Shown here one piece after another: positions 8,703 through 11,323 of a DNA stretch of 64,000 nt. The stretch is from Geminicoccus roseus DSM 18922 (GTDB lineage Bacteria > Pseudomonadota > Alphaproteobacteria > Geminicoccales > Geminicoccaceae), in NCBI RefSeq assembly GCF_000427665.1, contig NZ_KE386572.1, positions 558,001 through 622,000 on the forward strand. Reading direction: 5' to 3'. The notes under the pieces were generated by a model, which was not told the origin of the DNA, did no database searches, and saw nothing but the letters and a program-made list of their open reading frames with translations. Position 1 is the stretch's first letter. Every line of letters starts with the position of its first letter. The position numbers and the translations under genes are program-made.

Positions 8703-9950
8703 ATGAGCCCGAAGCCCAGCAATCTCCACATCGACGGCCGCCGCTTCTGGGACTCGCTCATGGAGATGGCGAAGATCGGCGCCACGCCGAAGGGTGGCTG
8801 CAACCGGCAGACGCTGACCGACCTGGACAAGCAGGGCCGCGAGTTGTTCCAGTCCTGGGTCGAAGCGATCGGCTGCACCGTCGAGGTCGACGAGATGGGC
8901 AACATGTTCGCGCGGCGGGCGGGCAAGCGGGACGACCTGCCCCCGGTGGTGATCGGCAGCCATCTCGATACCCAGCCCACCGGCGGCAAGTTCGACGGGG
9001 TCGCCGGGGTGCTGTGCGGGCTGGAGGTGCTCCGCACCCTGCACGATGCCGGATACGAGACCGACCATCCAGTGATGGTGGTGAACTGGACCAACGAGGA
9101 GGGCTCGCGCTTCTCGCCGGCGATGCTCTCCTCGGGCGTGTGGGCCCAGGCGTTCACCAAGGAATGGGCCTACGGGATCAAGGATCGCGACGGCAAGAGC
9201 TTTGGCGACGAACTGGCGAGGATCGGTTTCAAGGGAGATCGTCCCTGCCAGCCGGCCGACTGGAAGTGCCATTTCGAGTTGCACATCGAGCAGGGCCCGA
9301 TCCTCGAGGCCGAGGACAAGCAGATCGGGGTGGTGACCGGCGTGCAGGGGATCCGCTGGCTGGACGTGACCATCACCGGCAAGGAAAGCCATGCCGGGTC
9401 CACGCCGATGCCCAGGCGCAAGGATGCGCTGGTCGCAGCCTCCAAGGTGATCACCGCCCTGGACGAGATCGCCCGCCGCCATGCGCCGGCTGCGGTTGCG
9501 ACGGTGGGCGAGATCAAGATCGCCAAGCCCTCGCGCAACGTCATTCCGGGCGAGGTCTGGTTCACCGTCGACCTGCGCCACCCGGACAGCGCCACCGTGG
9601 ACGCCATGGAGGAGGAACTGCGCCAGGCTGTCGGATCGGCCTGTGAGCGCGACGGGCTTCCCTCGAATGTCGAACGGCTCTGGGACTCGCCACCTGTGCA
9701 GTTCCATCCGGATTGCATCGACGCGGTCGAGGCCGCCGCGAAGGAAGCCGGCTATGCCTACCGCAAGCTGGTGAGCGGCCCTGGGCACGACAGCGCCTAC
9801 ACGGCGCGCCACGTCCCGACGTCGATGATCTTCATTCCCTGCAAGGATGGCCTGTCGCACAACGAGGAGGAGTCGGCGAAGCCCGAGGATCTGGCGGCAG
9901 GCTGCGAGGTGATGCTGCGGGCGGTGCTCACGATGGCCCAGGCTGGGTAG
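8703..9950 (+). CDS. M20-family amidohydrolase, N-carbamoyl-L-amino-acid hydrolase / allantoate type
   Basis: Zinc-dependent amidase of 415 aa of the HyuC/AllC/beta-ureidopropionase group, which hydrolyses N-carbamoyl groups. Dimetal-site motifs are in order: GSHLDTQPTGGKFDGV (His and bridging Asp), NWTNEEGSRF (Glu pair), FELHIEQGP (His) and GPGHDSAYTARHVPTSMIF near the end. The lid domain carries ITGKESHAGSTPM. ATG 8703 is taken as start because the conserved N-terminus (LHIDGRRFWDSLMEMAKIG) follows directly; the open frame extends upstream. Cytoplasmic. No pyrimidine or hydantoin genes adjoin it, so the true substrate is open. Confidence 0.9.
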   Translation: MSPKPSNLHIDGRRFWDSLMEMAKIGATPKGGCNRQTLTDLDKQGRELFQSWVEAIGCTVEVDEMGNMFARRAGKRDDLPPVVIGSHLDTQPTGGKFDGVAGVLCGLEVLRTLHDAGYETDHPVMVVNWTNEEGSRFSPAMLSSGVWAQAFTKEWAYGIKDRDGKSFGDELARIGFKGDRPCQPADWKCHFELHIEQGPILEAEDKQIGVVTGVQGIRWLDVTITGKESHAGSTPMPRRKDALVAASKVITALDEIARRHAPAAVATVGEIKIAKPSRNVIPGEVWFTVDLRHPDSATVDAMEEELRQAVGSACERDGLPSNVERLWDSPPVQFHPDCIDAVEAAAKEAGYAYRKLVSGPGHDSAYTARHVPTSMIFIPCKDGLSHNEEESAKPEDLAAGCEVMLRAVLTMAQAG

Positions 9951-9974
9951 GTCGGTGGGAACGCAAGTCCCTGC

Positions 9975-10003
9975 GTGACATCGAACGGCAGGTCGGCTAT
10001 GGG
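9975..10003 (+). promoter_or_regulatory. Probable sigma70 promoter of the aro leader transcript
   Basis: GTGACA (9975-9980) and TATGGG (9998-10003) are separated by 17 bp. Counting seven bases beyond the -10 box places transcription start at 10010, which is the A of the leader-peptide ATG. That predicts a leaderless leader mRNA, as known for trpL in Sinorhizobium meliloti. Confidence 0.5.
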
Positions 10004-10009
10004 CGTCTG

Positions 10010-10096
10010 ATGATCGTCATGCGCACCAACCACTACTTTTCGTTTTTTGGCTACCGCAGGCCAAGGGCGGAGGTACGGGTGCGCGCGATCGGATGA
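10010..10096 (+). CDS. Leader peptide with Phe/Tyr control codons (attenuator of DAHP synthase gene)
   Basis: A 28-residue open frame directly upstream of the DAHP synthase gene. Residues 9-15 are Tyr-Phe-Ser-Phe-Phe-Gly-Tyr, a cluster expected of a leader peptide that senses Phe/Tyr charging. All three Phe codons are TTT, although TTC dominates in this GC-rich window. ATG 10010 coincides with the predicted transcription start; an internal ATG at 10019 is the alternative. Ribosome stalling on codons 10034-10054 would mask the 5' arm (10053-10057) of the first hairpin described under the attenuator. It likely has no function other than regulation. Confidence 0.7.
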   Translation: MIVMRTNHYFSFFGYRRPRAEVRVRAIG

Positions 10097-10147
10097 AGTA
10101 AGCGAAGCAGACCCGGAACAGCCGCCAGCCAACCTGGCGGCTTTTTT
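10053..10147 (+). promoter_or_regulatory. Transcription attenuator with mutually exclusive hairpins
   Basis: Three competing pairings can be drawn. Pause hairpin 1:2: CCGC (10054-10057) with GCGG (10067-10070). Antiterminator 2:3: GGCGG (10066-10070) with CCGCC (10122-10126), stacked on CGGGT (10076-10080) with ACCCG (10111-10115). Terminator 3:4: GCCGCCAG (10121-10128) with CTGGCGGC (10134-10141), followed by TTTTTT. Regions 2 and 3 are shared, so the terminator and antiterminator exclude each other. Stalling at the leader's Phe/Tyr codons should favour antitermination and DAHP synthase expression. Confidence 0.72.
10121..10147 (+). terminator. Intrinsic terminator of the attenuator
   Basis: Perfect 8-bp GC stem (10121-10128 / 10134-10141), 5-base loop and a run of T from 10142. 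It lies 39 bases before the GTG of the DAHP synthase gene, so it ends the leader RNA unless antitermination occurs. Confidence 0.85.
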
Positions 10148-10185
10148 GTTGCCGCCGGTATGGCCCGACTTCAGGAGTACATACC

Positions 10186-11271
10186 GTGTCGACGACCACC
10201 GACGATCTACGCATCCGAGAGATCAAGGAACTGAGCAAACCCGCGGACGTGATCCGCGAGCTGCCGCGCAGCGATGCCGCGACCCGCACCGTGGTCGAGG
10301 GACGCCAGGCGCTGCAGGGGATCCTGCATGGCACCGACGACCGGCTGGCGGTGGTGATCGGTCCCTGCTCGATCCATGACCCCAAGGCCGCCCTGGATTA
10401 TGCCGAGCGGCTGGCCACGCAGCGCCGGCGCTTTGCGGGCGAGCTCGAGATCGTCATGCGCGTCTACTTCGAGAAGCCGCGCACCACGGTCGGCTGGAAA
10501 GGTCTGATCAACGACCCCGACCTGGATGGCAGCTTCCGGATCGACAAGGGCCTGCGCCTGGCCCGCGGCGTGCTCTGCGATGTCAACGACCTGGGCATTC
10601 CGGCGGCCTGCGAATTCCTCGACATGACCACCCCTCAGTACATCGCCGATCTGGTCGCCTGGGCGGCGATCGGCGCACGCACGACGGAAAGCCAGGTCCA
10701 TCGCGAACTCGCCTCCGGCCTTTCCTGTCCAGTGGGCTTCAAGAACGGCACCGACGGCAATGTGCGGATCGCGGCGGAAGCGGTGATGTCGGCATCCAGC
10801 CCGCACCACTTCCTGGCGGTCACCAAGGAGGGGCTTTCGGCCATCGCATCGACCGCCGGCAACGAGGACTGCCATATCATCCTCCGTGGCGGCAAGACGC
10901 CCAACTACGATGCGGCCAGCGTGGCGGCAGCCTGCCAGGAGGCGGCCCGCTGCAAGGTCAACCAGCGGCTGATGGTCGATGCCAGCCATGCCAACAGTTC
11001 CAAGAAGCCGGAGAACCAGCCCCTGGTGCTCGAGGACGTGGCCCGGCAGGTGGCAGCCGGCGAAACCCGGATCATGGGCGTCATGATCGAAAGCAACCTG
11101 GTGGCGGGGCGGCAGGAACTGGCCGCCGGCAGGCCGCTGGTCTACGGGCAGAGCGTCACCGACGGCTGCATCGACTGGGACACCTCGGTGGCCGTGCTGG
11201 AAATACTCGCCAAGGGCGTCCAGGCCCGCCGGGCGCGGCAGGCACAGGCGGTGGACCGGCTGGCAAGCTGA
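10186..11271 (+). CDS. 3-deoxy-7-phosphoheptulonate (DAHP) synthase, class I (AroF/G/H type)
   Basis: First enzyme of the shikimate pathway: condenses phosphoenolpyruvate with erythrose 4-phosphate. 361 aa, the usual size of E. coli AroF/G/H-like enzymes. Family landmarks: VVIGPCSIHD, VMRVYFEKPRTTVGWKGLINDP, ARTTESQVHRELASGLSCPVGFKNGTDG, ILRGGKTPNYD, MVDASHANSSK and GVMIESNLVAG. The start is GTG 10186, eight bases after a CAGGAG ribosome site. Control by the upstream Phe/Tyr attenuator suggests repression by phenylalanine and/or tyrosine supply; which one feeds back allosterically cannot be told. Monocistronic; a hairpin follows. Confidence 0.95.
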   Translation: MSTTTDDLRIREIKELSKPADVIRELPRSDAATRTVVEGRQALQGILHGTDDRLAVVIGPCSIHDPKAALDYAERLATQRRRFAGELEIVMRVYFEKPRTTVGWKGLINDPDLDGSFRIDKGLRLARGVLCDVNDLGIPAACEFLDMTTPQYIADLVAWAAIGARTTESQVHRELASGLSCPVGFKNGTDGNVRIAAEAVMSASSPHHFLAVTKEGLSAIASTAGNEDCHIILRGGKTPNYDAASVAAACQEAARCKVNQRLMVDASHANSSKKPENQPLVLEDVARQVAAGETRIMGVMIESNLVAGRQELAAGRPLVYGQSVTDGCIDWDTSVAVLEILAKGVQARRARQAQAVDRLAS

Positions 11272-11285
11272 TCCGGCCCAAGAGA

Positions 11286-11323
11286 CAGGCGCCCGCACCG
11301 GCTCTAGGCGGCGCGGGCGCCTG
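11286..11323 (+). terminator. Hairpin after the DAHP synthase gene
   Basis: Perfect 11-bp stem CAGGCGCCCGC (11286-11296) with its complement at 11313-11323. There is no T run, so it is a probable but not classical terminator. Confidence 0.6.

Follow-up and report, generated by a model that had tools for sequence, protein, structure and literature searches.

A predicted Phe/Tyr-responsive attenuator upstream of class I DAHP synthase genes in Geminicoccus roseus and related Proteobacteria

The region preceding the class I DAHP synthase gene of Geminicoccus roseus has the anatomy of a transcription attenuator. With a probability of about 90%, we read it as a ribosome-dependent attenuator that would set expression of the enzyme according to how much charged tRNA-Phe and tRNA-Tyr is available. 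The leader, its spacing, the terminator, the alternative pairing and the linkage to the gene are read from the sequence of the window, by which we mean the whole 64-kb stretch analyzed (G000:C5:558001–622000; 66% G+C), and its features are collected in Table 1. A short ORF containing codons for end products of the pathway precedes the gene, and an intrinsic terminator stands between the two. An antiterminator that excludes this terminator is predicted from pairing and spacing, positioned so that a waiting ribosome would free it. An attenuator before the DAHP synthase gene had been proposed from the sequence-only reading, and it is now strongly supported, since relatives conserve the leader, the spacings, the pairing of the core and the neighborhood of the gene.

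The element follows classical attenuation in both mechanism and anatomy. Transcription would begin on the leader ATG or no more than about two bases from it, with translation of the leader as a leaderless message. When aromatic amino acids are ample, the ribosome would pass over segment 2, segments 3 and 4 would pair, and RNA polymerase would stop at the T6 tract. Under a shortage of Phe or Tyr, the ribosome would wait on the control codons, leaving segment 2 free to pair with segment 3 and allowing transcription into the gene. We infer the start site, the translation of the leader and the starvation response from this arrangement.

Table 1. Features of the attenuator region and its flanking genes (window coordinates)
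Feature	Position	Strand	Basis or remark
Allantoate-amidohydrolase-type gene	ends 9950		upstream of attenuator; NF006769, 643 bits (cut-off 452)
−35 box GTGACA	9975–9980	+	sequence; comparison with alphaproteobacterial leaders
−10 box TATGGG	9998–10003	+	17 nt after −35 box, 6 nt before leader ATG
Expected transcription start, A of leader ATG	10010	+	inferred from promoter spacing, about ±2 nt
Leader ORF, 28 codons, MIVMRTNHYFSFFGYRRPRAEVRVRAIG	10010–10096	+	TGA at 10094–10096; aligned with relatives
Control codons Tyr-Phe-Ser-Phe-Phe-Gly-Tyr (TAC TTT TCG TTT TTT GGC TAC)	10034–10054	+	sequence
Segment 1	10034–10052	+	pairs with 10059–10075 in predicted 1:2 hairpin; weakly supported
Segment 2	10059–10075	+	core GGCGG 10066–10070, nearly invariant among aligned leaders
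Segment 3, AGCCGCCAG	10120–10128	+	terminator 5′ arm; partner of segment 2
Segment 4, CTGGCGGCT	10134–10142	+	terminator 3′ arm
T6 of intrinsic terminator	10142–10147	+	sequence
AGGAG Shine-Dalgarno of DAHP synthase gene	10173–10177	+	sequence
Class I DAHP synthase gene	10186–11271	+	361 aa, GTG start; TIGR00034, 510 bits (cut-off 173.2)
ABC transporter ATPase gene	downstream of DAHP synthase gene		best model under its cut-off

Distribution of the leader and its gene

The leader recurs upstream of related genes. The loci compared were the best 80 of at least 590 relatives from a scan of genome contigs, together with four from whole genomes, so the set represents only the closest relatives. Of 82 loci, counting that of the window, 62 have a leader (at least four aromatic codons in eight) and a terminator in front of the gene, compared with one of 1694 flank segments, taken from loci found on genome contigs, and one of 1680 Markov-resampled upstream regions under the same scan. 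Relaxing the threshold to three aromatic codons in eight again gave 62 of 82 loci, with 13 of 1694 flank segments and 16 of 1680 resampled regions. Two loci left out of this count, L003 and L004, are both leader-positive by model search, which brings the figure to 64 of 84. By the criteria used, leader and terminator are absent from 20 of 84 loci, including those of Rhodocyclus, Azoarcus, Pantoea and Enterovibrio. L082, with just 49 nt of upstream sequence, was scored negative by default, as were L058, L064 and L070, where aromatic-rich ORFs are seen by eye and no terminator is found by these criteria. The contig of L070 is binned as Anaerolineae (Chloroflexota), and its leader-like ORF, MSRYFSFFSWYGYFAAGQ, is separated from the DAHP synthase gene downstream by about 200 nt.

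A leader model built from 29 leaders was searched against 385 genomes of the class; eight candidates were scored per genome and strict filters applied, so weak leaders may be missed. Full-length matches with E < 1e-8 occur in 14 of the 385 genomes, and a close class I gene is present in the same 14. The leader adjoins the gene in 13 of these, the own genome included; in the other, G216, the leader is at a contig end and the gene is on another contig. The 14 genomes are not independent cases, since the sequences of the model include, or lie close to, those of at least the own genome (G000) and G388. Among the matches listed, the weaker ones (E ≥ 2.5e-6) mostly cover just the terminator end of the model and a few are full length, and the 16 that were fetched (L102–L117) have no class I gene within the 2.3 to 3.1 kb covered. 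The sequence-only reading had made conservation of the leader in relatives a test of the proposal, and the locus and genome counts together bear it out. In four genomes (G305, G382, G189 and G059), the matched span of the class I gene contains one or two stop codons.

In a gene tree of 95 rows, eight changes of leader presence are needed, at least five of them by well-supported branches. One row, L119, is labeled leader-bearing with its leader sitting on another contig of that assembly. G388, a member of the same class, groups inside Bradyrhizobium. Of 31 genomes of the family, just two, both of the same genus, have the class I gene, and gene and leader therefore look like a unit that was acquired or kept together. 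The own genome also has one copy of a class II DAHP synthase elsewhere, with no comparable leader in its upstream stretch. The class I gene scores 539.2 bits against the AroG model NF006723, under the cut-off of that model (568). Just 3′ of it, at 11286–11323, is a very strong GC-rich hairpin lacking a T run, possibly the terminator of the DAHP synthase gene.

Control codons and the start of the leader

The Phe codons of the window leader are TTT in three of three cases, whereas TTT accounts for two of the 28 Phe codons in three neighboring genes; the earlier remark that the three TTT codons of the control run are unusual here thus holds. The same bias is seen across the 62 leaders, in which 161 Phe codons are TTT and 49 are TTC, compared with 53 TTT and 327 TTC in the downstream genes (Fisher p = 3e-53, relatedness ignored). 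Phe occurs somewhere in all 62 leaders, Tyr in 61 and Trp in 45, so the steady signals appear to be Phe and Tyr, often joined by Trp. The window leader itself lacks Trp. Sensing of Phe and Tyr, as first proposed, fits the window, but it seems too narrow for the wider set: Trp codons are found in those 45 leaders and in six of 13 further leaders, and the congener has TGG at the position of the window's TCG. In one locus, L026 (Candidatus Burkholderia humilis), the leader ORF past the control codons is off the usual frame and runs through the terminator.

Promoters were scored in 61 of the 62 leaders with a simple self-made matrix, an approximation; L060, where the contig is cut, was dropped from these and the Shine-Dalgarno counts. 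The −35 box of the alphaproteobacterial leaders is GTGACA in 15 of 22 and NNGACA or NNGACT in all 22. By this matrix, 20 of the 22 have a best promoter that ends 6–8 nt short of the leader ATG. The two exceptions are L014, where the distance is 7 nt to another ATG, six bases further upstream, and L055, at 10 nt. A gap of 7–8 nt from −10 box to ATG is found in six of eight Xanthomonadales leaders, some with low scores. Thirteen further loci were scored, two of them belonging to the L003 and L004 genomes, and 11 have a gap of 6–7 nt. The remaining leaders are mostly betaproteobacterial, and 22 of 31 have a gap of 25–39 nt. Pairing to the anti-Shine-Dalgarno of −5 kcal/mol or lower is predicted before three of 61 leaders versus 55 of 61 genes. 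L031, L039 and L045 (Burkholderia and related) have their best promoter 37–38 nt before the ATG, with the leader still devoid of a Shine-Dalgarno.

The window promoter, taken alone, is weak, and its −10 box is poor. A scan with the sigma-70 consensus found no promoter at the window leader, and in 1000 Markov resamplings a promoter scoring as well turns up somewhere in 5.9% and at 5–9 nt before the ATG in 1.0%. The spacing that the earlier reading took to set initiation at the first base of the leader ATG is present (GTGACA-N17-TATGGG, then 6 nt). Because the gap is 6–8 nt in 20 of 22 alphaproteobacterial leaders, the window mRNA likely starts leaderless. This part of the original proposal is supported, at the level of sequence, by the gap in Alphaproteobacteria and in most Xanthomonadales leaders and by the missing Shine-Dalgarno.

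Terminator and competing helices

The terminator helix 3:4 comprises 9 bp (−17.2 kcal/mol, z = −5.48), and a terminator scan of positions 9500–10600 found one terminator, where shuffled sequences average 0.4. The antiterminator would pair GGCGG at 10066–10070 with CCGCC at 10122–10126, and the predicted fold of the window with control codons occupied is the 2:3 pairing (−29.1 kcal/mol, z = −2.65). The bare 2:3 duplex of the window is within chance compared with shuffled leaders (p = 0.135), and so is that of the congener (p = 0.48), while 41 of the 62 leaders reach p ≤ 0.05. When the stretch left free by a stalled ribosome is folded, 2:3 results in 60 of 62 leaders, a count in which the core was located by motif and which thereby favors 2:3. 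The 1:2 hairpin is present in the predicted fold and does not rise above shuffles, 176 of 200 of which fold equally well (z = +1.05); it is, by this score, the least supported of the three pairings. Three mutually exclusive pairings had been described in the sequence-only reading: 3:4 with its T6 tract is well founded and 2:3 is favored in the stalled fold, subject to the chance-level bare duplex, but 1:2 does not stand out.

Two alignments were used to compare the helices. A1 comprises 21 of 22 alphaproteobacterial leaders (without L010) and the eight of Xanthomonadales, and A2 comprises 36 of the 40 other leaders (without L034, L044, L048 and L050). The terminator helix is paired in 96.5% of cells in A1 and 96.0% in A2, values reached by none of 500 shuffles in either. 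The antiterminator is paired in 84.5% of cells in A2 (0 of 500 shuffles) and in 77.0% in A1, which holds the window and in which the core hardly varies; there, 202 of 500 shuffles reach the same value and no 2:3 covariation beyond shuffles was detected. Joint changes in segments 2, 3 and 4 beside the core are present in L032, L035, L065 and L079, and six of 36 leaders in A2 break a 2:3 pair beside the core. Compensatory changes in relatives, which had been suggested as a check, are thus found for 3:4 in both alignments and for 2:3 in A2, where the helices stay paired through changes on both sides, but not for 2:3 in A1.

The distance from the control codons to the core is the strongest structural test. 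GGCGG follows the last clustered aromatic codon by 7–19 nt in 55 of 62 leaders, compared with 95 of 3100 Markov shuffles. In the window, the last control codon ends 11 nt before GGCGG, and the median gap to a looser motif among the leaders is also 11 nt.

Alternative readings and relation to known attenuators

Other explanations of the region were weighed against charged-tRNA attenuation. A conventional 5′ untranslated region, with the promoter further upstream or a start at the ATG at 10019, would agree with the weak −10 box, with the lack of a consensus promoter in the window and with the 25–39-nt gap of 22 of the 31 leaders outside Alphaproteobacteria and Xanthomonadales, which indicates that the system can do without a leaderless start. 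We consider it quite unlikely for the window, given the short alphaproteobacterial gap, the alignment of ATGATC between window and congener, and the absence of Shine-Dalgarno-like pairing (−5 kcal/mol or lower) before 58 of 61 leaders. Arrest of the ribosome by the leader peptide itself, a TnaC-like mechanism in which the nascent chain would sense a free aromatic compound rather than the ribosome waiting for charged tRNA, could draw on the aromatic-rich hydrophobic run and on the fairly conserved stretch past it. Arrest peptides, however, usually require a fixed sequence, whereas the order and number of aromatic residues differ among leaders (YFSFFGY, YFWYFSY, FYFYFFW and FWYFFY) and the conserved stretch encodes the GGCGG pairing segment; this makes peptide arrest very unlikely.

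That the hairpin and ORF are decayed or due to chance, with no function in the own genome, is extremely improbable: the −10 box and bare 2:3 duplex of the window are unremarkable alone, and the genome has its class II enzyme without such a leader, but the congener and relatives from three classes retain the elements and their spacings. If the released RNA, some 138 nt long, or its peptide acted in trans as rnTrpL and peTrpL of Sinorhizobium do, attenuation in cis would be only a part of the function. The anatomy is the same as that of rnTrpL, for which trans functions are published (PMC7298713), but a function in cis explains the conservation of the leader, and we regard trans action as unlikely. 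The wider proposal is of an attenuator family that accompanies class I DAHP synthase across three proteobacterial classes, its leaders nearly always without a Shine-Dalgarno and leaderless in Alphaproteobacteria and most Xanthomonadales, with a released RNA of about 130–140 nt and an aromatic-rich peptide that would also act in trans to report aromatic supply to other genes; taken as a whole, it is improbable.

Charged-tRNA attenuation, the preferred reading, has several known parallels. In Corynebacterium glutamicum, the AroR leader encodes a Phe-Tyr-Phe peptide before aroF, a DAHP synthase gene whose expression is said to rise under Phe limitation (PMC11802643, PMC4046766). The present system shares with it an aromatic leader peptide before a DAHP synthase gene. 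The likeness is one of description; unlike in that actinobacterium, the RNA design here is common to Alpha-, Beta- and Gammaproteobacteria and often includes Trp codons. The trpL attenuator of Sinorhizobium meliloti is ribosome-dependent and its transcript begins with the leader ATG (PMC7298713, PMC10117765). It too serves aromatic metabolism, and the promoter spacing and missing Shine-Dalgarno described here fit a similar start; it differs in its Trp codons, its trpE(G) target and the trans functions shown for rnTrpL there.

The pheL-pheA attenuator has a Phe-rich leader peptide, mutually exclusive hairpins and a terminator (PMC11802643). The window resembles this arrangement, represented in Rfam by Phe_leader (RF01859), but at 16.6 bits it stays well under the gathering score (55), and its gene encodes DAHP synthase rather than being pheA. 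For aroF of E. coli and Shewanella, an attenuator sensing Tyr-tRNA is listed as a prediction in a table (PMC2659441). This gammaproteobacterial case is likened by description, and the Pantoea and Enterovibrio loci compared here lack leader and terminator. At gathering score, Rfam 15 has no match for an attenuator RNA in the window or in 20 related loci, where one tRNA was matched. A permissive scan of 9900–10250 returned five weak matches, the best being sroD (20.4 bits, E = 0.098), with Phe_leader at E = 2.9, and none was accepted. We found no description of the present leader in Proteobacteria in the literature searched, although a prior prediction may exist. In Burkholderia anthina, two glyphosate-adapted mutants have expanded an 11-bp repeat in front of a DAHP synthase gene (PMC10667639), which might fall within a related attenuator; the best match to the repeat unit in 13 related upstream regions is 9 of 11.

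The attenuator would represent a conserved and testable control point at the entry to the shikimate pathway in many Proteobacteria, one without a match in Rfam 15 at gathering score. Its probable leaderless starts in Alphaproteobacteria and most Xanthomonadales, set against longer leaders without a Shine-Dalgarno in most others, would make the role of initiation in attenuation open to experiment. For the engineering of aromatic products, the attenuator would be a switch that needs to be removed.
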